A stretch of DNA of 56,739 bases, taken from an uncultured Ectothiorhodospiraceae bacterium (GTDB lineage: Bacteria; Pseudomonadota; Gammaproteobacteria; Nitrococcales; Nitrococcaceae). Shown here piece by piece: positions 32,392-56,739 of this stretch; within the stretch, counting starts at the first letter, position 1, and the number at the start of each line of letters is the position of its first letter. The stretch is taken from positions 1 through 56,739 of the forward strand of contig CAJXND010000006.1 of assembly GCA_913056385.1 (NCBI GenBank), written 5' to 3'. The notes beneath the pieces were generated by a model that was not told the DNA's origin, did no database searches, and saw nothing but the letters and a program-made list of their open reading frames with translations. Both the position numbers and the translations under genes were made by a program.

Positions 32392-32430
32392 ATTTCATGC
32401 CAAGCGAGCACCGAGGCACCCGCAAGCCAG

Positions 32431-32727: not shown

Positions 32728-32743
32728 CGTGTCTTTACTCCGA

Positions 32744-33547: not shown

Positions 33548-33550
33548 GGC

Positions 33551-34417: not shown

Positions 34418-34428
34418 GTTCTCTCCCC

Positions 34429-35499: not shown

Positions 35500-35503
35500 G
35501 GTG

Positions 35504-38115: not shown

Positions 38116-38166
38116 GAATGCCTCTCCTCCGTTTCCTTTCAGTCGCGACTATGTTGCCGCTTATTC

Positions 38167-38197
38167 ATGTTCGTTTTCAAACATACCACCGAAAACG
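38167..38197. promoter_or_regulatory. GlpR-like operator and overlapping dyad upstream of glpD
   Basis: ATGTTCG-TTTT-CAAACAT (38167-38184) is an inverted repeat with one mismatch and resembles the E. coli GlpR half-sites (ATGTTCG/CGAACAT). Overlapping it, CGTTTTC (38172-38178) and GAAAACG (38191-38197) form a second, perfect 7-bp dyad spaced by 12 bases. Both lie in the 111-base glpR-glpD gap. Confidence 0.65.
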
Positions 38198-38226
38198 GGC
38201 GCGTCAAGGTGAAAATTCTGCAGGGC

Positions 38227-39015: not shown

Positions 39016-39033
39016 TGCACCCCTCCCATGATT

Positions 39034-39045
39034 TTCGTTTGCGAA
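39034..39045. promoter_or_regulatory. GlpR-like operator between glpR and glpK
   Basis: TTCG-TTTG-CGAA is a perfect dyad with the core spacing of GlpR operators (TTCG-N4-CGAA). It lies 19 bases upstream of the glpR start and just upstream of the glpK -35. Further TTCG half-sites occur at 39063 and 39073. Confidence 0.6.
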
Positions 39046-39053
39046 CGTTGCGC

Positions 39054-39081
39054 TTGACTTTTTTCGAGTGCGTTCGATCAT
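39054..39081 (+). promoter_or_regulatory. Candidate glpK promoter
   Basis: TTGACT (39054-39059, five of six consensus) is followed after 16 bases by GATCAT (39076-39081, four of six). The glpK ATG is 49 bases downstream of the -10. GlpR-like half-sites occur between and upstream of the two hexamers. Confidence 0.55.
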
Positions 39082-39129
39082 ACCGGGACAAACGAAGCGC
39101 GCAACAACCCAGCGGAGGAGAGCAGCGGA

Positions 39130-40617
39130 ATGGCTGAACGCGACGGCATCCTGGCAATCGACCAGGGCACGACAAGCTCACGGGCCATCGTTTTCGATAC
39201 CGATGGCAACATCATGGCCACGGCGCAGCAGGAGTTCCCCCAGCACTACCCCCACGGCGGCTGGGTGGAGCACGACCCGCAGGATCTGCTCGAGTCAACG
39301 GTGAACACCTGCCACCGCGCCCTGAAAGCCGCCAAGGCGGCCGGGGTTCATGCCCGCACCATCGGGATCACCAATCAGCGCGAGACCACCATCGTGTGGG
39401 ATCGTGCAACCGGCGAGCCCATTCATAATGCCATTGTCTGGCAGGATCGGCGCACGGCGGAGCGCTGCGCCGCGCTCAAGGCCGCCGGCCACGAGACCAT
39501 GGTGGCCGAGCGCACCGGACTGCTGCTGGACCCGTATTTTTCGGCCACCAAAATCGCCTGGCTCCTCGACAATGTGGCAGGCGCACGGGCTCGGGCCAAG
39601 GCCGGCGAGCTGGCTTTTGGCACGGTCGACACCTGGCTGCTCTGGAAGCTCACCGGCGGCCGCAGCCATGCCACCGACGCCACCAATGCAAGCCGCACAC
39701 TGCTTTTTGATATCCATCGCCAGGATTGGGACGATGAGCTGCTGGCCCTGTTCGACATCCCGCGCGCCATGCTGCCGGCTGTCCTGGACAGCGCCGCCGA
39801 CTTCGGCACGACCGACGCCGACGTGCTCGGCGTGACGCTGCCCATCGAGGGCATTGCCGGCGATCAGCATGCCGCCGTGGTGGGACAGGGCTGCTTTCGT
39901 CCGGGCATGATCAAGAGCACCTATGGCACGGGCTGTTTTGCGCTCATCAATACGGGCGAAGAGGCAGTGCCGTCGCACAACCGTCTGCTCACCACCACCG
40001 CCTATCGCATCAACGGCAAGCCGACCTATGCGCTGGAAGGCGCCATTTTCATTGCCGGCGCCGCCATCCAGTGGCTGCGGGATGAACTGGGCATCATCGC
40101 CCATGCCTCGCAGAGTGAAGGCCTTGCCAACGACGCCGAGGCCGAGGGACTGTACCTGGTGCCCGCGTTCACCGGCCTGGGCGCCCCCTGGTGGGATCCA
40201 AACGCCCGCGGCGCCATCTTTGGACTCACCCGCAACACCGGCGTGGCCGAGTTTGTGCATGCCGCGCTCGACTCCGTGTGCCTGCAGACCGGCGACTTGC
40301 TGGAGGCGATGGCCCGTGACTCGGGAACACCCCAGGAGACACTGCGCGTGGACGGCGGCATGGTGGCCAATAACTGGCTCCTGCAGCGTCTGGCCGATCT
40401 GACCGGGCTGGCGGTCGAGCGCCCCGAAGTTATCGAGACCACCGCACTGGGTGCGGCGTATCTGGCGGGCCTGCAGCATGGCATTTACGACTCGCTCGAG
40501 GACGTGAACTCGCAGTGGGCGCTCAACGCCCGCTTCGAGCCGGCCATCAGCCGCGCGGCGCGCGAGCACATCGTTGAGGGCTGGCACGACGCGGTGCGCC
40601 GGACGCTGACCACCTGA
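39130..40617 (+). CDS. glpK: Glycerol kinase
   Basis: 495 residues of the FGGY family. The N-terminal phosphate loop [13 protein letters not shown] is at about 11-23, followed by TNQRETT, WQDRRT and the second signature [20 protein letters not shown]. It phosphorylates glycerol to glycerol-3-phosphate, the substrate of GlpD and the inducer of GlpR. The ribosome site GGAGGAG is clear. No glpF is present; uptake here depends on the ABC importer. Confidence 0.97.
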
Positions 40618-40689
40618 CCCGGGCAGACCCGCCCCGTGGCCAGCCGCCCGGCGGGCAAGCTATGATGGCGTTTTGCGCAGGAGGTAACG

Positions 40690-41133
40690 ATGCAATACCT
40701 GCACACAATGGTGCGTATTTCGGATATCGACGAGTCGCTGCGGTTTTACTGCGGATTGCTCGGGATGGAGGAAATCCGCCGGCGTGAGAGCGAAAAAGGC
40801 CGCTTCACCCTGATCTTTCTGGCCGCCCCCGCCGACGTCGAGCGGGCGCGCACCGATGAGCAGGCACCCATGCTCGAGCTCACCTGGAACTGGGACCCCG
40901 AGACCTACACCGGCGGGCGCAATTTTGGCCATCTGGCCTATCGGGTCAACGATATCTACGGCCTGTGCCAGCGGCTGATGGACAACGGGGTCACGATCAA
41001 CCGGCCGCCGCGGGATGGCCACATGGCCTTTGTGAAATCGCCCGACGACATCTCGATCGAGCTGCTGCAAAAGGGCGACCCGCTGCCCGAGCAGGAGCCG
41101 TGGGCGTCAATGGCCAACACGGGGAGCTGGTAG
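40690..41133 (+). CDS. gloA: Lactoylglutathione lyase (glyoxalase I)
   Basis: 147 residues, a VOC-fold protein. The four metal ligands of glyoxalase I are present: His5, Glu63, His81 and Glu124. It converts the methylglyoxal-glutathione adduct to lactoylglutathione. Methylglyoxal is made from dihydroxyacetone phosphate, so a place next to glycerol genes is sensible. AGGAGG lies upstream of the ATG. The tspO gene starts four bases after its stop. Confidence 0.94.
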   Translation: MQYLHTMVRISDIDESLRFYCGLLGMEEIRRRESEKGRFTLIFLAAPADVERARTDEQAPMLELTWNWDPETYTGGRNFGHLAYRVNDIYGLCQRLMDNGVTINRPPRDGHMAFVKSPDDISIELLQKGDPLPEQEPWASMANTGSW

Positions 41134-41136
41134 GCC

Positions 41137-41643
41137 ATGTCGGCCCGGCCGCCCATGGCCGACCGGCGCCGTGACCTGTTGGGGCTTGGCGGCTGGACGC
41201 TCCTGGTCATCGTCACGGCAATGGGCGGCATCCTGAGCCCGCCCGGCGCCTGGTACGCGGGGCTCGCCAAGCCCCCGCTGACCCCGCCCGATCTGGCCTT
41301 TCCGGTAGCCTGGACGCTGCTCTATATCCTCATGACCGCGGCGGCCTGGCAGGTCTGGCGGCGCATCGGGCTCGTGGCCGGGCTGGCCGTTTTGCTGCCA
41401 TTCGTAGCCCAACTGGGCGCCAACGGGCTGTGGAGTATTCTGTTCTTTCAGTGGCACCGGCCCGATCTGGCGCTGGTCGATCTGGTTGCACTCTGGCTGC
41501 TGGTCGCGCTGACCATGTGGCGCTTCCGCCAGGTCCACCCACCGGCGGCCTGGCTCCTGGCGCCCTACCTGGTCTGGATCACCTTTGCGGGTTATCTCAA
41601 CATCGGCGTCATTCTGCTGAACGGCCCGGCCCCGCCGGCGTAG
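41137..41643 (+). CDS. tspO: TspO/MBR family tryptophan-rich membrane protein
   Basis: 168 residues with five hydrophobic helices, typical of TspO. Characteristic features are WYAGLAKPPLTPPDLAFPVAWTLLYILM in the first two helices (conserved Pro-Pro and Trp residues) and an ANGLWSILFF helix. TspO binds porphyrins and other ligands and modulates stress responses; its precise role varies. ATG 41137 or 41155 could be the start. Co-transcription with gloA is likely. Confidence 0.9.
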   Translation: MSARPPMADRRRDLLGLGGWTLLVIVTAMGGILSPPGAWYAGLAKPPLTPPDLAFPVAWTLLYILMTAAAWQVWRRIGLVAGLAVLLPFVAQLGANGLWSILFFQWHRPDLALVDLVALWLLVALTMWRFRQVHPPAAWLLAPYLVWITFAGYLNIGVILLNGPAPPA

Positions 41644-41651
41644 CCACGCCC

Positions 41652-42614
41652 TCAGCGGTCGCCGCGAATCCGCTCCTGCCACTCCGCCTCGGTAAACTCC
41701 AGGCCCTCGCTTTCCCAGGGGGGAATCGGGGTGAAAATCTCGACCAGAAAATCGACAAAGGCCCGCACCTTGCGCGACAAATGGCGCCGGTGCGGATAGA
41801 GCAGGAAATACGCCGAGCTTTCGTGCGGATACTGTGGCAGCACGGGCACCAGCTCGCCCCGGCGGATGGCCGGCATGACCAGCCAGGTGGAAAGGCGCGC
41901 CAGGCCCAGTCCGGCAAGCGCCGCCTCGTAGAGCGCATCGGCGGTATTGGCGCGGAAATTGCCCTTTACATGCAGCACACGATGCCCCATTTCCGCATCT
42001 TCAAAGGCCCAGTCATTGAACTGCGAGACCTCGTAGAGCGTGAGGCAATTGTGATCCAGCAGCTCCTCGGGCGTGCGCGGCTTGCCAAACTGCTCGATAT
42101 AGTGCGGTGAGGCGCAGATGATGCGCCGATTTACGCACAGCCGCCGCGCAATCAGCGACGGGTCTTCCATCTGCTCGCGCCACTGGATGGCAACGTCAAT
42201 GCCCTCTTCAATCAGGTCCACATGGCGGTCGGTGAGCTCAAACTCCACGTTGAGGTCGGGATAGCGCTCGAGAAACTCGCTCATGCGCGGTAGCACCTCG
42301 ACCCGGCCAAAGGCCACCGTAGCGGCTACACGCAGTGTGCCGCGCGGGTTTTCGTTGAGCGCCGTGACGGCCTCCTCGGCCTCCTCGATCTCCTGGATGA
42401 TCCGCGAGCAGCGATCGTAATAGGCCTGCCCCACCTCGGTGAGGCTCACGCGCCGGGTGGTGCGGTTGAACAACCGCACGCCCAGCCGATCCTCAAGCCG
42501 GCGGATCTGCTTGCTGACCGCCGAGGGCGTCAGGTCGAGGTCACGGGCGGCAGCCGAGAAGCTGCCCTTTTCCACAGCCCGGACAAACATGTGCATTTCG
42601 GCGGCGCGATCCAT
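41652..42614 (-). CDS. LysR-family transcriptional regulator
   Basis: 320 residues. The N-terminal winged helix-turn-helix (FSAAARDLDLTPSAVSKQIRRLEDRLG, about 18-44) is followed by a substrate-binding domain of the AaeR/DsdC-like subgroup (PRGTLRVAATVAFG). The effector is unknown. It is divergent from the 55-residue gene at 42725, the best candidate target by position, and convergent with tspO. Confidence 0.9.
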   Translation of the reverse strand: MDRAAEMHMFVRAVEKGSFSAAARDLDLTPSAVSKQIRRLEDRLGVRLFNRTTRRVSLTEVGQAYYDRCSRIIQEIEEAEEAVTALNENPRGTLRVAATVAFGRVEVLPRMSEFLERYPDLNVEFELTDRHVDLIEEGIDVAIQWREQMEDPSLIARRLCVNRRIICASPHYIEQFGKPRTPEELLDHNCLTLYEVSQFNDWAFEDAEMGHRVLHVKGNFRANTADALYEAALAGLGLARLSTWLVMPAIRRGELVPVLPQYPHESSAYFLLYPHRRHLSRKVRAFVDFLVEIFTPIPPWESEGLEFTEAEWQERIRGDR

Positions 42615-42643
42615 TTTACCTATTCCTTTTGGGCAACAATACT

Positions 42644-42673
42644 TTGACAGAATACCGGATTATCTTTTTTAAG
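42644..42673 (+). promoter_or_regulatory. Candidate promoter of the 55-residue gene
   Basis: A consensus TTGACA (42644-42649) is followed after 18 bases by TTTAAG (42668-42673), four of six -10 positions. The intergenic DNA is locally AT-rich, unlike the surrounding genes. The ATG is 52 bases downstream of the -10. Confidence 0.5.
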
Positions 42674-42724
42674 GCACAAAGTAAGCTCTACCCCCATCAC
42701 AGTGACAGCAACGAGGTGCCCATC

Positions 42725-42892
42725 ATGATCCATCGCGACCTCTCTCCTGCCGAGATTGACGCCGCCGTCCGTCAGGCCGAAGCCATTCGCAGCGCTTACA
42801 TTGCCGGCGCCTGCAAATCGATGGTAACGCGCATTCGCAACCGCCTGGGTGACCGGGAGGCCGCCCGCAACGGTCTGGCCGCCTCGCACTGA
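42725..42892 (+). CDS. Small uncharacterised protein (55 residues)
   Basis: 55 residues, mostly helical by eye, with a basic patch (VTRIRNRLGDREAARN) near the C-terminus. No known family recognised. GAGGTG lies seven bases before the ATG and a credible promoter is upstream. An open frame continues upstream through the promoter, but that part is AT-rich and non-coding in appearance. It is divergent from the LysR gene and convergent with azlD. Confidence 0.6.
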   Translation: MIHRDLSPAEIDAAVRQAEAIRSAYIAGACKSMVTRIRNRLGDREAARNGLAASH

Positions 42893-42905
42893 GGCAGGCC
42901 GGCTA

Positions 42906-43226
42906 CTAGAGCCGTCCCAGACCGCGCAGCACCCAAAGCACGCTCATCCCCGCCGCCAGGGTCATGAGCGTGCCGCGGGTCCGCCAGGCCACCAACGCCG
43001 CCACCACACCCGCCGCCAGCCGGGCCCCGTCGATCCCGCCATCCTCACCGATCCGGATCAATCCGGGCAGCACCAGCGCCGCAAATACCGCGGGCGGCAC
43101 ATAGTTGAGTGCCCGTCGCACCCATTCGGGCATGCGCAAACGACCGCCGAACACCAGGAACGAGCCCCGCCAGAAAAACGTGCCGGCACCAATGGCCAGC
43201 ACCAGCCACCACAGCGGATCAATCAT
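42906..43226 (-). CDS. azlD: AzlD-family branched-chain amino acid exporter, small subunit
   Basis: 106 residues with four hydrophobic segments. The motif GTFFWRGSFLVFGGRLRMPEW and a VPPAVFAALVLP helix are typical of AzlD. Together with AzlC it forms a branched-chain amino acid exporter. It overlaps the end of azlC by eight bases. Confidence 0.9.
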   Translation of the reverse strand: MIDPLWWLVLAIGAGTFFWRGSFLVFGGRLRMPEWVRRALNYVPPAVFAALVLPGLIRIGEDGGIDGARLAAGVVAALVAWRTRGTLMTLAAGMSVLWVLRGLGRL

Positions 43227-43938
43227 GCCGCCACCACTGCTCGGCCAGCACGCCGGCGGCGATACCGGCCAACGCCCCGAGCGTGAGCCCCAGCCCCGCC
43301 GGTAGCGCCTGCCCCAGTACCGAGCCGCTCCCGCCCACAGCCGCCGCCACCGCTGACGGGCGGGTGCGGACTGCCGGCATCAGCAGGGCCAGAAAGATCA
43401 GCGGCACGATAAAGCCAAGCTCCCAGCTGGGCGGCAGCGCGGTTCCGGCCCAGAAACCGAAGGCGGTTGCCAGCTGCCAGACGACCCACAGCGGCAGAGC
43501 GACTCCCAGATAGAACCAGTGGTTGGCTGGTGGCGGGTCATCGGCCATGAGCCGTGGAACGGTTAGCGCATAGGCCTGATCGGTGAGCAGATAGGCCATG
43601 GGGGCGCGCCAACGCAGGGGAAGATACTGGAAGTGGGGCGCGAGATGCGCGCTGTACATGAGCATGCGCAGATTGATGAGCAGGGCCGTCACCCAGACAA
43701 GGATGCTGGCCGCCTCTGCATCAATGAGCTGCAGGGCGGCAAGTTGCGAGGCCCCGGCAAACACCACCACGGACAGGCCCATCGTGAGCTCGGCACTCAG
43801 CCCCGCATCGAGCCCCGCCACGCCGGCGGTAACCCCGAACGGGATGATGGCGGCCACCATGGGGCCGACCGCCTGCATACCGGCGAGCAGCGTGGCACGC
43901 CGTGTGGCCCGGGACGATGTCGTCTGGCCGGGCCTCAC
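43219..43938 (-). CDS. azlC: AzlC-family branched-chain amino acid exporter, large subunit
   Basis: 239 residues with about seven hydrophobic segments. IIPFGVTAGVAGLDAG, FAGASQLAALQL and NLRMLMYSAHLAPHF are AzlC signatures. The annotated start is GTG at 43938, overlapping the upstream GST stop (GTGA); an ATG 20 codons later (MQAVGPMVAA) is also possible. It acts with AzlD in amino acid export. Confidence 0.92.
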   Translation of the reverse strand: MRPGQTTSSRATRRATLLAGMQAVGPMVAAIIPFGVTAGVAGLDAGLSAELTMGLSVVVFAGASQLAALQLIDAEAASILVWVTALLINLRMLMYSAHLAPHFQYLPLRWRAPMAYLLTDQAYALTVPRLMADDPPPANHWFYLGVALPLWVVWQLATAFGFWAGTALPPSWELGFIVPLIFLALLMPAVRTRPSAVAAAVGGSGSVLGQALPAGLGLTLGALAGIAAGVLAEQWWRHD

Positions 43939-44534
43939 GTCGGTGGCGGGCGAGTCTCGACAAACGCCGGGCGCGCGTTGAGGCGTTCGAGCCAGGCGGC
44001 CGCCGGGCCGCCCCAGTCCCGCCAGGGCACCTCATTGGCAAACCGGTAGTCGAGCCAGTTCAGCACTACGGCAAGCGCCAGATCGCCCAGATCCGGCTCG
44101 CCGGGCCGCTCATCGTCCACGGCTTTGACCACGGCCCGGGCGCCGCGCTGCAGACCCTCCGCGCGACGGGCGGCAAGCGGCGTTGTGGCATCGCCATGAC
44201 GCCGCTCGGTGATCACGCCCACGCCGGCATCGAGGCAGCTCAGCGCAAGCCCCAGGCGCGCATGTACCGACTCCACCGTGTCGCGCGCCATCAGTCGCGG
44301 CTCGGGATACCGGCGCTCCAGATAGAGCACGATAACCCCCGCCTCACAGAGCGCCTCACCACCCTCGGTGATCAGAGCGGGCACGCGGCAGGCCGCATTC
44401 ACCGCCAAAAGCTCGGCGGGCGTCTGCCAGGGGTCAACAAAGTGGTATTCGACCTGCTCGATCAACTGTTTTTCGGCCAGCACCACCCGCACCAGGCGGG
44501 CATAGGGCGACGTCGCCGATGTATAGAGCTGCAT
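43935..44534 (-). CDS. Glutathione S-transferase family protein
   Basis: 199 residues. The N-terminal thioredoxin-like domain starts MQLYTSATSPYARLVRV with Ser as likely glutathione contact, followed by the cis-Pro loop CRVPALIT and the GEALCEAGVIVLYLE motif. An all-helical C-terminal domain follows. The substrate is unknown. GGGAGGGG before the ATG fixes the start; upstream frame extension is not supported. Confidence 0.88.
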   Translation of the reverse strand: MQLYTSATSPYARLVRVVLAEKQLIEQVEYHFVDPWQTPAELLAVNAACRVPALITEGGEALCEAGVIVLYLERRYPEPRLMARDTVESVHARLGLALSCLDAGVGVITERRHGDATTPLAARRAEGLQRGARAVVKAVDDERPGEPDLGDLALAVVLNWLDYRFANEVPWRDWGGPAAAWLERLNARPAFVETRPPPT

Positions 44535-44559
44535 CACTCCCCTCCCATATGAACCGCGC

Positions 44560-47500
44560 TCAGGATACCGGGCCCGTGCGCCGGAGCAACCCGGAGCGCT
44601 GACGCCAACGGGCCAGACGCTGGTGCACATTGTGGCCCAGCATCAGCAGGCAGGGCGTCAAAAGGAGGGTGAGCACCGTCGCAAAGGTCAGACCCCCCGC
44701 AATGGTGGCCGACAGCTGCGCCCACCACTGCGTGGACGGCGCATTGAACTCGATGGTACGCGAAACCAGATCCACGTTGAGCTTGAGCACCATGGGCATC
44801 AGGCCCAGCACCGTCGTGACCGAGGTGAGCAGCACGGGCCGCAGGCGCTGGGCAGCGGTCCGCAGTATGGCCTCGGGCACGGGCATGCCCTCGTCACGCA
44901 GGGCGTTGTAGGTGTCGATGAGCACGATGTTGTTGTTCACGACGATCCCGGCGAGCGCAATCATGCCCACGCCGCCCATGACAATGCTGAACGGGCGCTG
45001 GGTGATCATCAGTCCCAGCAGCACGCCGGCGCTCGACAGCACAATGGCCGACAGCACCAGCAGCGTTTGATAGACGCTGTTGAACTGGGTAACAAGAATG
45101 ATGCCCATTAACGCGATGGCAACCACGAAGGCCGCGGACAAAAACGACTGCGCCTCGCGCTGGTCCTCGTCCTCACCCTTGAAGCTCACGCGAATGCCTT
45201 CCGGGGGTGGCGCCTGGGCAAGCGCCGCGCGCAGGGCCTGGACCCGTTCATCGGCCAGTCGCCCGGCCTCGACATCGGCACTGATGGTGAGGACGCGCTG
45301 ACCATCGATTCGCTCCAATGTCCCGGTCTTGGGCGCTGGCACAAAGTCGACGAAATTGCTTACGGGGACCTGTCCGTAGCGGGTGGGCACGCGAAGCTGC
45401 CCCAGCGAGTCGAGACTGCGCTGCTCCACCGGGAAGCGCACCCGGATGTCCACCTCGTCATCGGCGTCATCCGGGCGATAATCCGCGATCAGCACACCGT
45501 TGGTCACCAGTTGCACGGCATTGCCCACCAGCGCCACATCGGCGCCGTAACGCGCGGCACGCTCGCGATCCACCCGCAGCGCCCATTCAATGCCGGGCAA
45601 CGGGCGGTTATCCTCGACATCGGCAAAGCCGCCCAGCTCGTCCATGCGGGCCCGCACCGCCTCGACACCGGCCTCCAGCCGATCCGGCGGGCCGGCAATC
45701 TGCAACTCGACCGGCTTGGCCTGGCCCGGCCCCTGTTGTTGCTGGGTGATCTGAACCCGTATGCCCGGAATCCGGGCCACGGCGGCGCGAATGTCCTCGA
45801 CGAGGGCGGCGGCCGGCCGGCGCCGGGTCCAGTCGACAAAATCAAGCTGCACCACCCCGATGGCATCGCGCGCCAGGGACTGCCCGCCCGTGCGGGTAGG
45901 GTCGGCAAAGGTGCGCGCATAGACAAACGCCACTTCATCAAAGCCGGCCAGACGCGCCTCGACGGCCCGCACCAGCTGATCCTTTTCGTACACCGACAGA
46001 TCACCCCGGGCCTGGACCTGCACCCGCGCATACTCCGGCTCGGTCGAGGGGAAGAACTCCACGCCCGCGCCAAAGCGCCCATAGGCGATGTAGCTGGCAA
46101 CGACCACCACCAGCAGCATGAACACGACCGTCCCGGGCATCTGCAGGGCCCCGCGCAGCAGGCGCACATAGCCGCCGCTAAAGCCGTCCAGGTGGTTCAG
46201 CTCACCGCTCTCGGCAATGCGGATCCGCTCGTGATGCGCCCCCTGATGGCCGCCGGCCCGCCCAAACCAGCCGCCCAGCACCGGGATAAAGATAAGCGCC
46301 ATGGCAAGCGACGCCGCCAGGGTCACGATCACCGTAATGGGCAGGTATTTCATGAACTGGCCGACCAGCCCGCCCCAGAACAGCAGGGGCACAAACACCG
46401 CCAGCGTGGTCACCGTTGCCGCCGTAATCGGCCAGGCCATGCGCTGCGCGCCATGGCGGTAGGCCTCGGTCGCCGACCACCCCTCGGTCATCCGCCGCTC
46501 GGCGAGCTCAACCACGACGATGGCGGCGTCCACCAGCATGCCCACCACCAGGATCAGGCTGAACAGCACCACGATGTTCATCGTGTAGCCCATGGCATGC
46601 ACGGCAAGAATGCCCGTCAGAAAGGCGCCGGGAATGGCCAGCCCCACCAGCAGGGCCGGGCGCCAGCCCATAACGGCCACTACCACGATCATCACCAGCA
46701 CCACGGCGGTCAGCACGTTGTTTTGCAGATCGCGCAGCATCGTGCGGATGTCCTCGGAGCGATCCTGCAGATAGGTAACGTCGAGCGCCGCCGGCCACTG
46801 TGTGCGCATGCGCTCGACAATGGCGCGCACCTGCCGGTTGACCTCGATGATATTGGCGCCGACCCGCTTTGAGACCTCCAGCGTGACCGCCGGCTCGCCA
46901 TTGATGCGGGCAAATTCATCCGGGTCCTTGAAGGTACGGCGCACGCTGGCCACATCGCCAAAGGTGACCACCCGATCATCGGCCACCTTGACCGGCAGGC
47001 TGAGGACATCGTTCATATCCTCGATAACGCCGGGGACCTTGACCGACAGCCGCCCGGCCCCGGTATCGAGCGCACCCGCGGCAATCAGACGGTTATTGCG
47101 ATCGACCAGGTTGAACAGATCGGCGTAGGAGACATCGTAGGTCTGCATCACGCGGTCATCGACCGCCACCTCGAGCAGCTCCTCGCGATTGCCGCCAATA
47201 TCGGCCTCGAGCACGCCACTGAGGGATTCGATTTCGTCCTGCAGCGCCTCGGCGGTATCAAGCAGGGCCCGCTCGGGCACCGGCCCCGACAGAGCCACGG
47301 TGAGCACCGGGAAGAGCGCCACGTTGACCTCGTTGACCCGTGGCTCCTCGGCCCCCTGCGGCAGCTCCGACTTGGCAATATCAACGCCCTCGCGCACGTC
47401 ATCGAGCGCACGATCGGCATCAAAACCGGCATCGAACTCGAGGGTGACCGAGGCAAATCCCTCCGTGGCCGTGCCCTTGATCTCGGCCAGCCCCTCAATG

Positions 47501-47721
47501 CCCGAGAGCTCGCGCTCCATCGGGCGCACCAGCAGCCGCTCGGCATCCTCGGGCGAGATCCCCTCGTAGGCCATCGACACGTAGATCACGGGGATATTGA
47601 CGTCGGGCTCGGCCTCCTTGGGGATGTCCTGATAGGCCATGAGCCCCAGTCCCACGACCAGCAGCAGGACAAAAGTGACCGAGCGGCTGCGACTGAAGGC
47701 GGCGTTGATGAGCGTGCGCAT
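44560..47721 (-). CDS. RND-family efflux pump inner-membrane protein
   Basis: 1053 residues, full length for HAE-type RND pumps (AcrB-like), with 12 expected helices and two large periplasmic loops. In helix 4 the proton-relay pair Asp-Asp of AcrB is Asp-Ala (GMLVDAAIVVVE). In helix 10 the relay Lys is replaced within GIVVNNNIVLID. These changes are typical of a different RND subgroup rather than AcrB itself. The substrate is unknown. The adaptor gene lies five bases upstream; no outer-membrane channel gene is in the window. Confidence 0.93.
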   Translation of the reverse strand: MRTLINAAFSRSRSVTFVLLLVVGLGLMAYQDIPKEAEPDVNIPVIYVSMAYEGISPEDAERLLVRPMERELSGIEGLAEIKGTATEGFASVTLEFDAGFDADRALDDVREGVDIAKSELPQGAEEPRVNEVNVALFPVLTVALSGPVPERALLDTAEALQDEIESLSGVLEADIGGNREELLEVAVDDRVMQTYDVSYADLFNLVDRNNRLIAAGALDTGAGRLSVKVPGVIEDMNDVLSLPVKVADDRVVTFGDVASVRRTFKDPDEFARINGEPAVTLEVSKRVGANIIEVNRQVRAIVERMRTQWPAALDVTYLQDRSEDIRTMLRDLQNNVLTAVVLVMIVVVAVMGWRPALLVGLAIPGAFLTGILAVHAMGYTMNIVVLFSLILVVGMLVDAAIVVVELAERRMTEGWSATEAYRHGAQRMAWPITAATVTTLAVFVPLLFWGGLVGQFMKYLPITVIVTLAASLAMALIFIPVLGGWFGRAGGHQGAHHERIRIAESGELNHLDGFSGGYVRLLRGALQMPGTVVFMLLVVVVASYIAYGRFGAGVEFFPSTEPEYARVQVQARGDLSVYEKDQLVRAVEARLAGFDEVAFVYARTFADPTRTGGQSLARDAIGVVQLDFVDWTRRRPAAALVEDIRAAVARIPGIRVQITQQQQGPGQAKPVELQIAGPPDRLEAGVEAVRARMDELGGFADVEDNRPLPGIEWALRVDRERAARYGADVALVGNAVQLVTNGVLIADYRPDDADDEVDIRVRFPVEQRSLDSLGQLRVPTRYGQVPVSNFVDFVPAPKTGTLERIDGQRVLTISADVEAGRLADERVQALRAALAQAPPPEGIRVSFKGEDEDQREAQSFLSAAFVVAIALMGIILVTQFNSVYQTLLVLSAIVLSSAGVLLGLMITQRPFSIVMGGVGMIALAGIVVNNNIVLIDTYNALRDEGMPVPEAILRTAAQRLRPVLLTSVTTVLGLMPMVLKLNVDLVSRTIEFNAPSTQWWAQLSATIAGGLTFATVLTLLLTPCLLMLGHNVHQRLARWRQRSGLLRRTGPVS

Positions 47722-47726
47722 CGGGC

Positions 47727-48863
47727 TCAGCGCTCCGACTGCGCCTGCGCCGGCGCCTGTGCCGTGGGCGGACGGCCTGCTGCCGAGGCGGTATCGGGCA
47801 GCTCGCCCTCACCCGCCATTGGCTGCACCGGCTCACCCGGGCGCACAAACCCCTGGCCCACGGTAATGATGCGCAGCGAGTCGGGCAGTCCGCTCACCCA
47901 CACACCATCGCGCTCGGCCCGAACAATCTCGACCGGGTGAAAGACAACGCGATCGCCGGCATCCACCGCCTTGATGCCCACCTGCCCGCTATCTTCCAGC
48001 GACAGCCAGGCCGGGCTGACAAAATGCGCCTCGAGCGGGGCGAGAGGGATCTGCACAGTGGCACTTACCCCCACAGGCAGTCCTTCCGGGTTGGCTGCGG
48101 TGACCTCTACCCGAAAGGTTCGCGAGCCGGATTCCGCGGCCGACGCGATGTAGGTTACCTCGCCCTCGAGGACGTCGCCGGTGGCAAGCTCAACCCGGGC
48201 CTCGCGGCCCAGTTGCACCCTGCGAATATCCTGCTGGGCCACATTGGCCACGGCGATCAGCGGGTCGGCATCGAGCAGGCGTGCCACCTCATCCCCCACC
48301 GCCAGGTAGTCGCCCACAGCCGCGGGGCGCTCCTCGATCACACCCGCCACGGGCGCCTCGATCCGGGTGTTGGCGATCTCCTCGGTAATCGCGGCGAGCT
48401 GGGCGCGGGCCGCTTCGAGGGCCGCCCGGGCCTGGTTGACCGCCACCTGCGACTGATAGCCCTCGCCCTGCAGGCGTCGGGCCGCCTCGAAATCGGCCGT
48501 GGCCTGAGCCACGCGCGCCTCGGCCTCGGCGCGACGGGGTTCGCGGTCATTCATGGCAAGCCGGAGGATGAGGTCACCGGCCGCCACCCGATCGCCTTCG
48601 TCAACCGCCACCTCAACCACGCGCCCGGCGGTCTCGGCGCGCAGACGCACATCCTCATCGGCATGGGTATCGCCCTGGTTTTCAAGAAAGCGCTGCACCG
48701 GCTCGGCCTCCACCGCGGTGACCTGCACGGTCATGGCCTCGCGCGCATCGGCCGCGCCCGCCGTATCGGCCGGAGAGTCGGCAACACCGAACTGCCCGCT
48801 CAGCATCCAGACCCCCAGCAACAGGGCCATGGACAGGGCTATGAGATAAGACTTGAGATTCAC
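47727..48863 (-). CDS. RND efflux pump periplasmic adaptor (membrane fusion protein)
   Basis: About 378 residues: an N-terminal anchor (NLKSYLIALSMALLLGVWML), a lipoyl-like half (ETAGRVVEVAVDEGDRVAAGD), an alpha-hairpin with repeated Ala/Glu/Arg heptads and the second lipoyl half (NTRIEAPVAGVIEERPAAVGD), then beta-barrel domains. It bridges the pump to an outer-membrane channel. The GTG start at 48863 has GGAG about 11 bases upstream; a TTG at 48905 adds 14 residues but lacks a ribosome site. Confidence 0.9.
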   Translation of the reverse strand: MNLKSYLIALSMALLLGVWMLSGQFGVADSPADTAGAADAREAMTVQVTAVEAEPVQRFLENQGDTHADEDVRLRAETAGRVVEVAVDEGDRVAAGDLILRLAMNDREPRRAEAEARVAQATADFEAARRLQGEGYQSQVAVNQARAALEAARAQLAAITEEIANTRIEAPVAGVIEERPAAVGDYLAVGDEVARLLDADPLIAVANVAQQDIRRVQLGREARVELATGDVLEGEVTYIASAAESGSRTFRVEVTAANPEGLPVGVSATVQIPLAPLEAHFVSPAWLSLEDSGQVGIKAVDAGDRVVFHPVEIVRAERDGVWVSGLPDSLRIITVGQGFVRPGEPVQPMAGEGELPDTASAAGRPPTAQAPAQAQSER

Positions 48864-48976
48864 CGCGTCGCTCGCTCCGACCCGCTTTTGATCAATAGTC
48901 TGCAAATGCTACAGGGATTGGACGACAGGTGCCCCCAACGGTTTCTGACAGGGGTCAAGCCGCGGGCAGTTCGCGA

Positions 48977-49600
48977 TCAGTCACGTTCGAAATGATGCCC
49001 GAAGCGGGCGGCCTTGGTCTCGAGATAGGCGTGGTTGTGGGGATTGCGGCCGGCGAGGAGCGGCAGGCGCTCGAGCACCTCGATCCCGGCCGCAGCCAGG
49101 CCGTGGACCTTCTGCGGATTATTGGTGAGCAGGCGCAGGCGCGTGACACCAAGGGCCTGGAGCATGGCCGCTGCCACGCCGTAGTCGCGGGCATCGGGGG
49201 CAAAGCCAAGGGCCTCGTTGGCCTCGATGGTATCGGCGCCCTCGCGATCCTGCACCCCGTAGGCGCGGATTTTGTTGAGCAGGCCAATGCCCCGGCCTTC
49301 CTGGCGCAGATACACCACCACGCCGGTGCCGGCCTCGCCGATGCGCCGCATGGCGGCCTCGAGCTGCGGGCCACAGTCGCAGCGCTGGCTGAACAGCGCA
49401 TCGCCGGTAAGGCATTCGGAGTGGACCCTTACCAACGGCGCCTCGGCCGCCGCCGGGTCGCCCATCACCAGCGCCACATGCTCGCTGCCATGGGCATCCT
49501 CAAAGCCATGAATGCAGAACTGGCCCCATTGCGTGGGCAGTCGCGCATCGCCCGTCTCGCGGGCCTGCACATTGGCGCTGGACACTGACTTGGTGGTCAT
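48977..49600 (-). CDS. ribA: GTP cyclohydrolase II
   Basis: 207 residues. Zinc ligands are Cys63, Cys74 and Cys76 in the pattern [17 protein letters not shown], and the catalytic region is [10 protein letters not shown] followed by [13 protein letters not shown]. It opens GTP to start riboflavin synthesis. It is the stand-alone RibA rather than a RibBA fusion. The start gives MTTKSVSS; the farther ATG overlaps yqjG. Confidence 0.95.
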
Positions 49601-49613
49601 CCCGCCAATGGTA

Positions 49614-50573
49614 TCACGCACCCCGTCCGTGCGGCGCCTCGAAATCGAGCACCGGGCCGGCCGGAATCACGCCGGTCGGATTGATCATGGGGTGGCTGGT
49701 GTAATAGTGGCGCTTGATGTGATCCAGGCTGACCGTGCCGGCAATGCCCGGCTGCTGGTAGAGGTCGCGCAAATAGCCCGAGAGATGCGGATAGTCGTCG
49801 ATACGGCGCAGGTTGCACTTGAAATGCCCCACATAGACGGCGTCAAAACGCACCAGGGTGGTAAAGAGCCGCCAGTCGGCCTCGGTAATGGCCGCGCCGG
49901 TGAGATAGCGCTGCTCGCCCAGCCGGGCCTCGAGCTCGTCCAACGCCGCAAAGAGCTCGCCGACCGCCTCTTCGTAAGCGTCCTGGGCGGTGGCAAAACC
50001 TGCCTTGTACACCCCGTTGTTCACCGCATGATAGATGCGCGTGTTCAGGCCATCGATTGCATCCGCCAGGGCCGCCGGATACAGATCCAGCCCGGCGTTC
50101 ACCCCCGGCAGGTCATCAAAGCCCCGGTTGAGCATGCGCACCAGATCGGCGGATTCGTTGCTCACGATGGTCTCGCGCTCGCGATCCCACAGCACGGGCA
50201 CGGTGACGCGTCCCGTGTAGTGCGGATCGGCCCGTTGATACAGCTGATGCAGATACTCAAGGCCATAAAGCGGCTCGGCGGTGGCCCCGGGGTAGTCGGC
50301 CGCAAAATGCCAGCCGCCCTTGCCCATGTACGGATGGACCACCGAGACATCAATATGCGCCGCAAGGCCCTTTAGCGCGCGGACGATGAGGGTACGGTGG
50401 GCCCAGGGACAGGCGAGGGAGACATACAGGTGGTACCGCCCCGAGGCCGGTGGATGGTCGCCGTTGGGGTCGATCCAGCCCCGAAACACCGTGTCGGGCC
50501 GCTCAAAGCGCCCGCCGGTGGATTCCGTGTCATACCAGTTGTCATGCCAGACGCCGTCGACCAAAAGGCCCAT
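49614..50573 (-). CDS. yqjG: Glutathionyl-hydroquinone reductase (YqjG/Xi-class GST)
   Basis: 319 residues of the Xi-class GST family. The nucleophilic Cys55 lies in the signature [19 protein letters not shown]. The C-terminal part contains [29 protein letters not shown]-like features, of which the NGVYKAGFA motif is diagnostic. The enzyme removes glutathione from glutathionyl-hydroquinones. The gap to ribA is only 13 bases, and both may share a transcript. Confidence 0.94.
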
Positions 50574-50668
50574 GTGCGCTCTCCCGCTGTGTGTAAACCC
50601 ATGTACCTCGCGAGCAGGCTACGCCGACCCGGTGACACCCGCCAGGCAACCGCCGCGCCCCCGGCCGA

Positions 50669-51979
50669 TCAGTCGGCAGGCGAGGCCGTATCGTCACCGC
50701 CCAATGCCCGCCCTGCGGCGCGGGCCATGCTGCGAATGACCGCCCATTCCGCCTGCACCCGACGCAGGCTCCCATGCCAAGTGTCGCGCGCGGTATCGCG
50801 CGATGCCGCCCGGGCACCCGACTCGGCAACCCGCTCGGCGCTCAGGCAATCGGCGTAATGCCCCAGCGCAAGTGCCGCGCAGCGCTCGCGGGAGTAGGCC
50901 CGCGCTGTCTCGGCCGCGGCCTCGCGCCGGGCACGCCGGGCCGCCTCGTCGGCCTGCAGGCATTGCCCCAGCGCGGCCGCGAAGGCCTCGGTGGTGGCCG
51001 TCGCCGGCAGCAAACGCCCGTTGCGGCCGTTGACCACCTCGCGCGCCCCGGGAGCATCCAGCGCGACCACGGGCACGCCCGCCGCCATGGCCTCGGCCAG
51101 GACCATGCCCTGGGTTTCGGTATGCGAGGCAAAGCCAAACACATCCATGGCGGCATAGGCATCGGCCAGCCCGGGAAGATGCAGCGACCCCGGCCGATGC
51201 AGGCGCGCCTCAAGCCCGGCCTCGGCAAAGCGGGCATCGATCGGCGCTGCCGCCGGCCCGTCACCCACCACCAGGCAATGCACCGTCTCATCGGTCTGCG
51301 CCGCCTGCACCATGGCGCGCGCCAGATAATCCAGGTTTTTCTCCTCGGCCAGCCGGCCGACATGGCCGATAACCGGCGCGTCGGCGGGAATGCCCTGCTG
51401 CGCGCGAAAGGCCGCGCCATCGCCATTGGCAAACGCCGCCGCATCGATGCCCGTGGGCACCACGGCGACCGGCGCCTCGACACCGCGTTCATGCAGGAGC
51501 GTGGCCACACTCTCGCTCGGCGCAAATACCGCATCGCAGCTGTTTGCATAGCTCGTCGAGAGCTCCACGACAAAGCGCTTCAGGGCCGCCGAGTCCCCCG
51601 GCACATAGTGCGTGTAGGCCTCGTACAGGGTGTGATGGGTAAACACGAGTGGACAGTCACGCTCCGCTGCCACCCGCAGCGCCGTCGAGCCGATCAGAAA
51701 CGGATGATGGGCGTGGATGATCTGGGGGGCGAAGGCGTCCAGGGCCTCATCCAGCCGGCCCGGCACCGGCAGCACCACCGAGAAATCGCTGCCGTTGAAG
51801 TTCTGGATGGCCGGTATGCGCACCACATCGGGCTCGTGGGCGGGCATGTCCGGAAAAACCGGTGCCACCACCAGCACCCGGTGGCCACGATCGCGATAGG
51901 CCTCGGTAAACGCCGCCACCGAGTTGGCAACGCCCCCCACATGGGGTGTAAAGGTATTGGTCATCATGACGATGTTCAC
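50669..51979 (-). CDS. GT4-family glycosyltransferase
   Basis: 436 residues with the GT-B fold. The acceptor domain starts NTFTPHVGGVANSV; IIHAHHPFLIGSTAL and HHTLYEAYTHYVPG follow; the donor domain has HVGRLAEEKNLDYLARAM and the E-x7-E region SHTETQGMVLAEAMAAGVP. It resembles diacylglycerol glucosyltransferases, so a membrane glycolipid is a possible product, but the acceptor is not certain. It starts with GTG overlapping the upstream stop and is coupled to the unknown barrel protein. Confidence 0.88.
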   Translation of the reverse strand: MNIVMMTNTFTPHVGGVANSVAAFTEAYRDRGHRVLVVAPVFPDMPAHEPDVVRIPAIQNFNGSDFSVVLPVPGRLDEALDAFAPQIIHAHHPFLIGSTALRVAAERDCPLVFTHHTLYEAYTHYVPGDSAALKRFVVELSTSYANSCDAVFAPSESVATLLHERGVEAPVAVVPTGIDAAAFANGDGAAFRAQQGIPADAPVIGHVGRLAEEKNLDYLARAMVQAAQTDETVHCLVVGDGPAAAPIDARFAEAGLEARLHRPGSLHLPGLADAYAAMDVFGFASHTETQGMVLAEAMAAGVPVVALDAPGAREVVNGRNGRLLPATATTEAFAAALGQCLQADEAARRARREAAAETARAYSRERCAALALGHYADCLSAERVAESGARAASRDTARDTWHGSLRRVQAEWAVIRSMARAAGRALGGDDTASPAD

Positions 51980-54288
51980 AACGGCGCCTCCGGCAGTTTC
52001 ACCGAGCGCGCATGACCGCTTACCTCCAGCGCATCCCGGCCCGGCAGCGCAATTCTGACGCCATCGGGATCGGCACCGTCAATCGACCATTCCACGGTAT
52101 GCGCGCCCGTTGCCGCCGGGCGTATGAACACGCTCACCGCCCCCAGCACCGTGGGCGTGGGCCCATACGAGAGCCGGTTACCGGGCACCAGCCAGCGCGG
52201 CGGAATGCCAGCGCCCAGCACCAGCCGCCTGTCCTCCTCCCGGCAGAAGGCATTGCGCATCATCGCCACCCACTCGGCGGCCGCCCACACGTGTTGGCCA
52301 TCGCCCATGCAGCCACCGAGCGTGCCGGGGTGAATGGCCTCGGGCCACTGCCCGGTCGACGTGGCCAATCCGGCCACGGCGTCAATCAGCTCGAGCCCGC
52401 GCGGGTCTTCGGCGCGCAGCAGCACCTGGGCCAGATGCAGGGTCAGATAGGCGTTGACGCCCGAATGAATCATCTCCTGGAAGAAACCACCGTGCACCCG
52501 ATGCGCCTCGAGCAGGTAGTCCACCGTGCCAAGCAATTCGGGATCATCCGGCGCGGCCCGCTGGAGCGGGTAGCCGGGGACAAGCGAGCCGATGGCCCCC
52601 GCATCCATCCGCCGAAGGGGTGATGCGGGGATGGCCGTCACGCCAAGGCGCCGGGCATCGGCGGCCTGGGCCCGCTCGATGCAGGCCGCCAGATCGCCTG
52701 CCTCGGCACGCATCCAGTCCGCCAGCTCCGCCTCGCCCTCGGCCAGCGCAAGGCCGGCTGCCGCCTCAAGCCCGCCGACGGCCCAATCGTCGTCCCAGTA
52801 GTAATAGTCGTTGGGCCCCAGGTGCTCGGCACTGAACCCGGCCGGGAGCAGGCCCGCCTCGGGGCGGCCCGTGTCGCTTGGCAGGCGCTTGCGCTGCACC
52901 CACTCGGCACCGCGCCGAATCACGCGCAGCCACTCGGTACGGCTTGCACCCGGCGGCAGCGCACCCGTCAGGGCGTGGTAGCGCGCCACAATCCACAGGG
53001 CCTGGCCGTTGGCATCCCACTCGCCCTCCTGACTGTGGAAATAGCCGCTTGCCCGGGTCTGGCGCTGGGGGAAATGCGCAAGCGCCCGTCCCGCCCGATC
53101 CACAAAACCGACATGTAACAGCGCGTGAATGATGAACGCGGCATCCCGAAACCAGAACCGCCGATAGGTATACGGCCCGGGGTAGATATCCTCGACCGAG
53201 TGCTGGAGAAGGGTTTTCAGGGCGGCGTTGTACAGACTGACGGCGCGGGCATCGGGTGCCTCCAGCTGCGCCGCACCAGCCAGTGCCTCGCCCCAGGTCT
53301 GTGCCACCGAGGCGCTGGCATGTGCCGGCAAGGGGATGCGCAGACGGACCGAGCGCGGCGTGCTGGCGGCCAGGTCAAACAGTGCCACGGCGGTTACCAA
53401 CCCGGTCTCGCAGTCCACCGCCTCACCCGGAGCGGGTATCTCGCCATCACCGCGAGCGGCCGGCAGCGCGACATCGCCGTGTTCGTAGTCGGAGGCAAGC
53501 CAGGCGTCCGGTCGCTGCGCAAACTCGATAGCGGTCGGATGGCTCCCCGGCTCGTCGTCGTAGACCCGCCAGCGCCAGCCGTCCCCGGCCGTTGCGTCGC
53601 TGCGGATCCGCCGGACAAAGCTGATGCCCTCGGGGTTGTAGGGCCGCAGGGCAATGGCAAGGCGCGCATCGGCGTTGCTGTGAGCCTGGTACTCGGCCAC
53701 CAGATAATGCCGGCTGCCGTCGCGCTCCACTCGGGCGCGGGCCGTCAGGGTCATCCCGTGGCCCTCGACGCGCGTGACCACCACCAGATCATCACCGCCC
53801 CCCTCGACCTGCTGGACGGCAGTGCCCGCTCGCGAGGGGTAGAGGGCCCGGCCATCAGGCCCGAGCACCCAGGCATCGAGCGACCAGCCATCGTCGAGCG
53901 CGGTGAGCAGGCCGCGCGGATCGACGATGGGGAGCGCCGCACAGTCGGGCCGCCCCACGGCCGTCCAGTTCCGATGCGTGAGGTTGACATGGGTAATGCT
54001 GAATGCCCGCGGCAGAAAGGCCCGGCTGGTCGGGTCAAACTGCTGCTCGATCCAGTACGGCCACACCCAGTCGAGGTTGTGCTGAATGACCCGCGTGTTC
54101 ACCAGCCCCCGGGCATGAAACACCATCCCGGCGCGCAGCAGCTCGATGGGCTCGGCCACCTCCGAGGGCTGGCCAAAGCGGCGCAGCCGCGCCATTAGCG
54201 CCAGCGGATCCAGAAACCCCTGCGAGCGCGCCGCCCGGCGGAGCAGCCAGCGCCAGGGCAGCCAGCGAATTACTCCCATCAATCGCAT
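51976..54288 (-). CDS. Uncharacterised (alpha/alpha)6-barrel, glycosidase-like protein
   Basis: About 770 residues. A basic N-terminus ([15 protein letters not shown]) and a beta-rich first half precede a helical second half with [19 protein letters not shown], which mirrors the YCWLRDAYFTVHAL entry motif of the GH15 protein at 15746. Later segments [15 protein letters not shown] and [11 protein letters not shown] have acidic residues that could be catalytic. I do not recognise the family. No signal peptide is evident. The stop overlaps the GT4 gene, suggesting a two-step glycan function. ATG 54288 is chosen; the first codons remain uncertain. Confidence 0.75.
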
Positions 54289-54389
54289 CAATCGACACCC
54301 TCTGGGTCGTTTTTCTGTCGTGCCAGTGTAGAATTGATCGGTCCTGCCTCTTGAACCGGGGCAATAAACCATCCGAATGGAGATCGTTG

Positions 54390-54953
54390 ATGAATCCCGA
54401 TCTGGACCACCATTTCGAGCAGATCATCCGCGGCCTCGGCGAAGACGTCGAGCGCGAGGGTCTGGCCAAGACGCCCTATCGGGCCGCCCGCGCCATGGAA
54501 TTTCTCACGCAGGGCTATCAGCAGTCGCTGGATGAGCTCGTCAATGAGGCGATGTTCGAGTCCGACAATGACGAAATGGTGATTGTTCGCGACATCGAAT
54601 TCTACTCGCTGTGCGAGCACCATGTGCTGCCGTTTTTTGGCCATGCGCAGGTCGGCTACATCCCCGACGGCCGCGTGATCGGCCTGTCCAAGATCGCCCG
54701 CATTGTCGATATGTTTGCGCGGCGCCTGCAGATCCAGGAAAACCTGGCGCGCGAGGTTGCCGAGGCCCTGCAGCGGGTCACCGGAGCCCGGGGCGTTGCC
54801 GTGCAGATGGATGCCCAGCACATGTGCATGATGATGCGTGGCGTGAGCAAGCAGAACGCCGAGATGAGCTCATCGGTCATGCTGGGCACCTTCCGCGAGT
54901 CGGTATCCACCCGCAACGAGTTCCTGCAGCTGATCCGGCGGCGGCCCGCATGA
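54390..54953 (+). CDS. folE: GTP cyclohydrolase I
   Basis: 187 residues. Zinc ligands Cys75 and Cys146 are in [12 protein letters not shown] and QHMCMMMRG, with the catalytic His77/His78 pair. The enzyme turns GTP into dihydroneopterin triphosphate. The ATG follows GGAG; a longer frame from 54351 is not needed. Its stop overlaps folX (ATGA), and the pair looks like the monapterin branch. Confidence 0.95.
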
Positions 54954-55327
54954 GCGACGGGCTCGACCGACCCCTGTCGCAGATCCACATCAAGGATCTG
55001 CGCCTGCGCACCTTCATCGGCTTTAACGACGAGGAGCAGCGCAAGCGCCAGGACGTGGTGGTCAACATCCGCATCGACTATGACGCCCTGCCCGCCGCGC
55101 GCGGCGATGAGGTGGCCGAGGCGCTCGACTACAAGACCATCACCAAGCAGGTGATCGCGCATGTCGAGGACAACCGCTTTTTGCTGCTCGAAAAGCTGGT
55201 CAATGACCTTGTCGAGATGGTGATGGCGCACAACCCGGCGCAGCATGTCGAAGTCGAGGTCGACAAGCCGCATGCCCTGCGGTTTTCCGACTCCGTATCG
55301 CTCACGATGGCGGCCAGTCGAGGCTGA
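54950..55327 (+). CDS. folX: Dihydroneopterin triphosphate 2'-epimerase (FolX)
   Basis: 125 residues of the FolB/FolX fold. It matches E. coli FolX rather than FolB in my memory: [36 protein letters not shown] and [12 protein letters not shown]. FolX epimerises dihydroneopterin triphosphate to the monapterin form, leading to tetrahydromonapterin, a phenylalanine hydroxylase cofactor in Pseudomonas. FolB activity cannot be fully excluded. It is translationally coupled to folE. Confidence 0.88.
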
Positions 55328-55357
55328 GCCGATCCGGCGGCATCGCATGCCCTGCCC

Positions 55358-55669
55358 ATGACACTGGCTGCCTGGCTCTCGCTACTTGGCATCTGCCTGC
55401 TTGGCGCCATGTCGCCCGGGCCCAGCCTGGCCGTGGTCATTCGCAACACGGTAGCGGGCGGGCGCAGGGGCGGCCTGGCCACCGCGCTCAGTCACGGCCT
55501 TGGCGTGGGGGTATACGCGCTCGCAACGGCGCTCGGTCTGGCCACTTTGATCGCCACCCGGGAAACGCTGTTCACCGGGCTTACGCTGGCCGGCTCGGCC
55601 TATCTGCTGTGGCTTGGGGCCAATGCGCTGATGAAATGGGGCGAGTGGACCGCCGGAGCGGAGCTCTAA
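55358..55669 (+). pseudogene. LysE/RhtB-family exporter, truncated at about half length
   Basis: 103 residues. The N-terminal half of a LysE/RhtB amino acid exporter is clear: LLGAMSPGPSLAVVIRNTVAGGRRGG with the PGP signature, then two more helices and YLLWLGANALMKW. The family normally has about 200 residues. The frame stops at TAA 55667-55669, beside a sharp change in base composition, and no continuation is seen after it. It is either a gene cut by an insertion or a contig join artefact. Confidence 0.8.
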
Positions 55670-55697
55670 ACCTGCGCCCCTTACCTCATCAGCGACC
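55662..55697. other. Composition breakpoint / probable chimeric junction
   Basis: Left of this point sampled 60-base lines have about 68% G+C (41/60 at 55321). To the right they fall to 53% (56281, 56521) and 40% (56581). The LysE-type gene is cut here and the gene style changes. GAGCTC occurs at 55662-55667. No repeat, att site or transposase flanks the change. Confidence 0.75.
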
Positions 55698-56452
55698 TAT
55701 CTGGGTGGCAGTCCAACCAAAGCGCGCGAGGCGGGTTCACGCAGATGGAAATATTCCCCCGCATAGTCCGCGCCGCCGGGCCCGCAGAGATAGGCAATCG
55801 CCTGCGCCACATCGGAGGCCGCAATGTGGTCAGACAGCTCCAATTGGCTGACCGGATTAACCCCGGTGGCTTTGATCTCAACCTGCATCTGCGTCGCCAC
55901 AGTGCCAGGGCTCAACCCCAAACAGCGAATGCCTTGATCGCCATATTCAGCATGGCCAGAGCGGGTCAATTGCAGCACCGCAGCCTTAGAGGCGCAGTAA
56001 TGGCTCCAGCCTTCCAGCACCCCATAGGCCGCACCGGACGAAATATTGAGGATCGTCCCGCCCCCCTGTGCCGTCATGATCGGCAGGGCCGCCTTCATCA
56101 TGTAAAAGACACCTTTAACATTCACATCAATCACCCGGTCCCAATCGGCGGCTTCGAAATCCGCCATTCGATGCACAGGCAAGAGCATTCCTGCGTTGTT
56201 GACGACAATATCAAGACGACCGAAGCGCGCCACAGTTTGATCAACAGCCGCCTGCACCTGTGCAAAATCGGCAATATCGCAGGCGATCGCCAGCGCTTTT
56301 GACCCAATTTTCTCTGCCAATTTCGCCAGTTCAGCCTCAGAACGAGCCGTCAAAACCACCTGCGCCCCAAGGGTTGCAAAATGTTCAGCCGCCGCCGCTC
56401 CAATGCCGCGGCTTGCGCCGGTTATCAACACTGTTTGCCCTGAAAAATCCAT
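55697..56452 (-). CDS. SDR-family oxidoreductase of foreign (Rhodobacterales-like) style
   Basis: 251 residues of the classical SDR family. The cofactor motif is TGASRGIG (11-18), with the active site at Ser138/Ser139, Tyr152 and Lys156. The C-terminal HLREPASRALVGLPPR is complete. Base use is poorer in G+C than all genes to the left, with many CAA, TTT and AAA codons. The substrate is unknown; FolM, also an SDR, would fit after folX but orientation and composition argue against that. The ATG at 56452 is the natural SDR start. Confidence 0.88.
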   Translation of the reverse strand: MDFSGQTVLITGASRGIGAAAAEHFATLGAQVVLTARSEAELAKLAEKIGSKALAIACDIADFAQVQAAVDQTVARFGRLDIVVNNAGMLLPVHRMADFEAADWDRVIDVNVKGVFYMMKAALPIMTAQGGGTILNISSGAAYGVLEGWSHYCASKAAVLQLTRSGHAEYGDQGIRCLGLSPGTVATQMQVEIKATGVNPVSQLELSDHIAASDVAQAIAYLCGPGGADYAGEYFHLREPASRALVGLPPR

Positions 56453-56577
56453 TCTTGTTACGCCTTTTGCTGTGTCTGGCCAAAGGCTAGCTCTGCCGGC
56501 CAATCTGCACAAGTCATCACTTCTGGCTTTACCCAGCCAGCAAGCCATGGCACCACAGCTTCAGATTGGAGATTGCC

Positions 56578-56739
56578 ATGCGCGCGACATTGATAATTTT
56601 GACTTTTGCCTATGTCTTGTCCCAATTTTATCGGGCATTTCTGGCCGTTTTGGCAGCCCCCTTGCAGGCAGATATTGGCGCGACCGCTGCGCAGCTCTCG
56701 GCGGCCTCTGGCTATTGGTTTTTAACCTTCGCTCTGATG
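56578..56739 (+). CDS. MFS transporter, N-terminal fragment (runs off right edge)
   Basis: 54 codons remain open to the end of the window. The peptide MRATLIILTFAYVLSQFYRA and the following FLAVLAAPLQADIGATAAQL are typical of the first helix and loop of MFS permeases. AGATTG lies upstream of the ATG. Composition is about 40% G+C at the 5' end, again unlike the rest of the window. Substrate unknown. Confidence 0.7.
   Translation, partial: MRATLIILTFAYVLSQFYRAFLAVLAAPLQADIGATAAQLSAASGYWFLTFALM

Follow-up and report, generated by a model that had tools for sequence, protein, structure and literature searches.

Does the end of contig C6 (G000:C6), where a gene of the LysE type breaks off and the base composition falls, record an acquisition of foreign DNA by the host, or was it created when the contig was made? 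The window, i.e. the whole stretch of DNA that was analyzed, is the entire contig of 56739 bases, and the feature therefore sits at a contig end. The bin to which the contig belongs comprises 1.95 Mb in 86 contigs (98.8% complete, 3% contamination), the genomes of 12 of the 13 congeners measure 1.6-2.2 Mb, and the G+C content of the host is about 66%. For the host side, the locus was compared with 39 relatives, including the 13 congeners, and with other contigs of the same bin. As judged from these comparisons, contig C6 is very probably a false join of host DNA and DNA of the Planktomarina lineage.

The host side of the locus consists of folE, folX and the start of lysE (Table 1). Some match to this three-gene query was found at an E-value of 0.001 in 29 of the 39 relatives, a few of these being short stretches only. 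In 7 of the 13 congeners, the match spans folE and continues into lysE, stopping at 55621-55630, and C6 is colinear up to about 55620 with these seven and with contig C4 of the same bin, all eight of which carry a full-length lysE after folE-folX. The other six congeners yielded no match running into lysE: in G004, G005 and G011 (L097, L094 and L098) it is limited to folE-folX, G005 being a single-contig genome, in G010 only a fragment at a contig end was found, and G003 and G008 gave no match. Thirteen loci, from C4 and 12 relatives, were examined for the gene itself, and a lysE match was present in nine and absent from four; the nine matches, at 65-79% amino acid identity, come from seven congeners, C4 and one member of the family, and two of them cover only 53 and 72 residues. 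Thus, the intact gene downstream of folX that the earlier note proposed to seek in relatives exists in 7 of the 13 congeners and in C4, and the other six gave no match running into it; a lysE gene behind folX is not a constant feature of the host genus.

Compared with the host-genus locus, C6 has the same genes in the same order as the seven congeners and C4 up to lysE codon 84, and differs in that its lysE breaks off. The LysE-type open reading frame (ORF) of C6 encodes 103 amino acids and covers positions 2-78 of the 193 positions of the Pfam LysE profile, whereas the full-length proteins have 206-217 amino acids in the seven congeners (counted from the start of the match) and 215 in C4, which bears out the earlier description of a gene cut at half its length. 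Residues 1-84 of the ORF are LysE, and the final 19 are the C-terminus of an oxidoreductase of Rhodobacteraceae bacterium IMCC1909. The true continuation of lysE was sought elsewhere in the bin, and the search returned only the full copy on C4 and a distant homologue on C11 (30% identity). The fusion keeps the reading frame, and the 103-residue ORF passes the Pfam LysE cut-off (64.9 versus 25.6 bits), so an annotation pipeline would call a LysE-family protein of 103 residues at 55358-55669, although the ORF is probably chimeric.

Downstream of this point, C6 follows a different genome. The tail is matched by the IMCC1909 locus JAPDHM010000002.1 (L003) at 96.1% nucleotide identity over 1130 bases in unbroken gene order, by three loci of Planktomarina metagenome-assembled genomes (MAGs; L004-L006) at 87-90% DNA identity, and, at 71%, by a further Planktomarina locus that is less closely related (L008). 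The matches of L003-L006 all begin at 55610 and continue to the final base of C6; that of L008 starts at 55605. A scan of public genome contigs with the SDR protein retrieved 387 relatives, and among the best 80 of the 387, which were kept, IMCC1909 ranks first (97% amino acid identity), followed by these three Planktomarina MAGs (91-92%). The SDR and the start of the MFS gene had been described as alphaproteobacterial, and this assignment holds and can be narrowed to the Planktomarina lineage. The SDR-MFS pair that was to be sought in Rhodobacterales is present in IMCC1909 in the same order, after a gene of the DAO family. The three genes, their order and their orientation are identical in the two loci; C6 differs in being confined to a stretch that opens with the final 20 codons of the DAO gene (stop included) and closes with codon 54 of the MFS gene. 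Over 759 bases, a comparison that takes in two codons upstream of the ATG, the SDR gene differs from that of IMCC1909 at 26 nucleotides, 18 of them at third positions, and at 8 of 253 amino acids; this predominance of third-position changes (18/26) is what one would expect if the sequences had gone on evolving as genes in a closely related organism. In sequence, the tail has the appearance of a normal stretch of a genome of the Planktomarina lineage. It is absent from all 39 relatives searched, save three matches of 33, 41 and 78 bases.

Table 1. Coordinates of the features on the two sides of the joint in contig C6.
Feature	Coordinates	Strand	Evidence
folE, GTP cyclohydrolase I, native	54390..54953	+	Pfam PF01227, E 5.9e-72; colinear in 7/13 congeners and C4
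folX/folB-type dihydroneopterin aldolase, native	54950..55327	+	Pfam PF02152 FolB, E 1.3e-28; colinear in congeners
lysE-type exporter gene, first 84 codons, native	55358..55609	+	65-79% aa to nine lysE ORFs; Pfam PF01810
Joint zone, Trp-Leu-Gly-Ala codons common to both source proteins; right limit inferred	55610..55622	+	L003-L006 identity begins at 55610; congener lysE alignable to 55620-55630
Entire foreign tail of the probable chimeric contig	55610..56739	+	96.1% over 1130 bases to JAPDHM010000002.1 (L003), colinear
FAD-dependent oxidoreductase gene, 3' end (19 codons + stop), Planktomarina-lineage, in-frame fusion to lysE start	55610..55669	+	WLGANALMKWGEWTAGAEL = C-terminus of 445-aa ORF L003:8787-10124; DAO family PF01266
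SDR gene, intact, foreign; start set at ATG 56452	55697..56452	-	97% aa to IMCC1909; PF00106
MFS transporter gene, first 54 codons, foreign, cut by contig end	56578..56739	+	Residues = IMCC1909 MFS from Met-Arg-Ala on; PF07690 on full L003 protein

The earlier note had reported a fall in G+C from about 68% to about 40-53% within about 30 bases. The shift is real, and 7 of the 17 full 60-base lines of the tail do lie at 0.40-0.53; the other 10 are higher, with a maximum of 0.65, and the transition is less sharp than reported. In 60-base lines, the G+C content passes from 0.67-0.77 at 55380-55619 to 0.60-0.63 at 55680-55919, and in 300-base windows it declines from 0.70 (55300-55599) through 0.62 (55600-55899) to 0.53 (56300-56599), the drop being spread over about 800 bases. 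To the left of the joint, 33 of 927 60-base lines likewise have a G+C content of 0.53 or less, and the first 7 kb of the contig, at its left end, range over 0.61-0.69. The tail as a whole (55610-56739) has a G+C content of 0.568, and none of 364 bin windows of the same size (1130 bases), drawn from pieces of 20 other contigs, all of C4 and the left part of C6, is that low (minimum 0.577, mean 0.656, sd 0.025). The tetranucleotide distance of the tail is 0.23 to L003 versus 0.51 to the bin, a comparison that favours L003, as it holds the homologue of the tail; all 49 windows left of the joint are closer to the bin than to L003. By itself, composition is only suggestive of a foreign origin of the tail.

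The position of the joint follows from the two sets of alignments. The congener lysE genes track C6 for 84 codons, after which C6 follows IMCC1909; this places the joint at 55609/55610 or immediately to the right of it, and not within 55640-55720, the interval over which the earlier note proposed to map reads. The codons for Trp-Leu-Gly-Ala are followed by AGT or AGC in six of the eight host-side sequences (C4 and the seven congeners), by TCG in one and by CGT in one; C6 reads AAT, like IMCC1909. The exact word TGGCTTGGGGCC was found in none of these eight sequences, the nearest having one mismatch, and the longest exact word of 55610-55640 anywhere in the host-side loci has 8-11 bases; IMCC1909 is identical to C6 for 20 bases at the joint. 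On these values, the overlap of the two sources may be anything from about 5 to about 20 bases.

Two non-overlapping parts of C6 thus match two different genomes, and both stay colinear with their respective sources until the joint zone is reached. Against positions 40000-55630 of the window, the IMCC1909 genome gave only six short matches at 63-82% identity among the 40 of 48 candidates scored. A wider contamination of the bin by Planktomarina was sought with a 16.8-kb query from L003, which yielded, beyond the tail, only two weak matches (67% over 531 bases and 81% over 53 bases, on C22 and C3) among the 40 of 57 candidates scored. Two sources that run unbroken to one point and meet in codons for the same four residues, 1.1 kb from the contig end, form the pattern of a false path in an assembly graph. 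The sequence of events would be as follows. Bases 1 to about 55609-55622 would derive from the bin's high-G+C host genus and bases 55610-56739 from an alphaproteobacterium of the Planktomarina lineage, both organisms presumably being present in one sample. The switch between the genomes, made by the assembler or, with lower probability, during amplification, would have taken place at a short word in the Trp-Leu-Gly-Ala codons that LysE has and that the oxidoreductase has close to its C-terminus, and the contig would have stopped 1.1 kb further on. The "LysE" of 103 residues would then be a fusion made by no organism. This supports the earlier view that a chimera is the simplest explanation, given a colinear Planktomarina-lineage tail that reaches the last base of the contig.

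A published study of metagenome assembly (PMC8171044) provides the closest known case. There, chimeric nodes in multispecies assembly graphs are said to be possibly stretches conserved across species, and chimeras among the 500 longest contigs of the CAMI low-complexity set range from about 60% (Velvet-based assemblers and Megahit) to 87% (metaSPAdes) (PMC8171044). C6 resembles the inter-species chimeric contigs of de Bruijn graph assembly described there (PMC8171044) in that non-overlapping parts match different species, and differs in that its joint word, itself inferred, seems short and coincidental between two unrelated proteins. Several observations count against a false join. The exact TGGCTTGGGGCC is missing from the eight host-side sequences, and the bin search for the continuation of lysE returned nothing beyond the copies named above; with six of the 13 congeners giving no match into lysE, an altered lysE would not be unheard of in the genus; and the reading frame is kept across the joint, an outcome that a chance join would yield in a third of cases. 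Our confidence in the false join derives from the two colinear matches, and not from the congener counts or the shared word.

A laboratory chimera, produced by ligation of fragments or by amplification with template switching, would be a special case of the false join and falls within the confidence given to it. Template switching likewise gives short shared words at joints, but a lone chimeric molecule would rarely become the consensus in a deep data set; nothing in the analysis separates this origin from an error of the assembler, and we consider it unlikely as the specific cause.

A real acquisition is very unlikely. It would be a recent horizontal transfer in which illegitimate recombination, at a short word common to both sequences, placed at least 1.1 kb of Planktomarina-lineage DNA inside lysE. 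Seen from one side, the single joint of such a transfer would look identical to that of a chimera, the SDR frame is intact, and since some congeners have no lysE after folX, the gene may be dispensable. The foreign piece, however, begins within the final 20 codons of one gene and runs off the contig, with no host DNA seen beyond it. Sharing of the insertion by some relatives would support a transfer without being required by it, and none of the 39 shares the tail beyond 33-78 bases. No mobile-element, tRNA or repeat signature of an acquired insertion was detected: there is no tRNA in the window, repeats around the joint are weak and short only, and the tail genes (the oxidoreductase end, SDR and the MFS start) are not mobile and include no integrase, in agreement with the earlier remark that neither integrase, repeat nor tRNA marks the joint. 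A mobile element was considered and rejected on the same grounds (0/3 tail genes mobile). A very recent transfer of the DAO-SDR-MFS fragment into a high-G+C, possibly halophilic host, creating an in-frame LysE-oxidoreductase fusion ORF, is accordingly rated as highly improbable. The least credible reading, a native tail whose G+C shift is local variation between genes, could appeal to the host windows that reach down to 0.577 and to the low lines left of the joint, yet as a native low-G+C island it is rejected on the 96% nucleotide match to an alphaproteobacterium, and the gene order common to that organism, the absence from 39 relatives and the broken lysE also speak against it.

A second, probable mixture became apparent in the same bin. 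Positions 6962-55620 of the window align in reversed orientation to C4:28675-74115 (L083-L086); the alignment consists of four blocks with a combined length of about 44 kb and 73-79% identity. C6 and C4 thus carry diverged versions of one region of about 49 kb. At one of the breaks between blocks the gene content differs: a set of ORFs at 20003-24797 of C6 corresponds to about 1 kb in C4; these are betI-betB-betA-like, which we take to be of the choline-to-betaine type, and lie beside an ORF resembling a substrate-binding protein. Together with the genome sizes and the G+C content given above, these betaine-type genes are reminiscent of Spiribacter-like halophilic gammaproteobacteria; a search of G009 for a 16S gene returned no match. 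In congener G009 (three contigs), the long matches of window positions 25000-40000 and of C4 40001-55000 overlap on one region of its contig C1. A duplicated region of such length and divergence is unlikely within one genome of 1.95 Mb, and the bin probably contains DNA of two congeneric species; the 49 kb are about 2.5% of the bin, close to the stated contamination of 3%. Long matches to G009 from pieces of C1, C4, C6 and C9 all show 86-88% identity and gave no separation of C4 from C6 as the intruder; over folE-folX-lysE, C4 has 89.9% identity to G009 versus 83.2% for C6.

The false join at the end of C6 would be an ordinary artefact, relevant for curation only, and the same holds for the probable mixture of two species (C4 and C6). 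Positions 55610-56739 should be cut from the contig, and neither the LysE protein of 103 residues nor the SDR and MFS genes should be assigned to the host. The half-length gene at the joint is, on the present alignments, almost certainly an artefact and not the product of a real gene transfer, and a "recent alphaproteobacterial gene transfer" deduced from the end of C6 would most likely be false.
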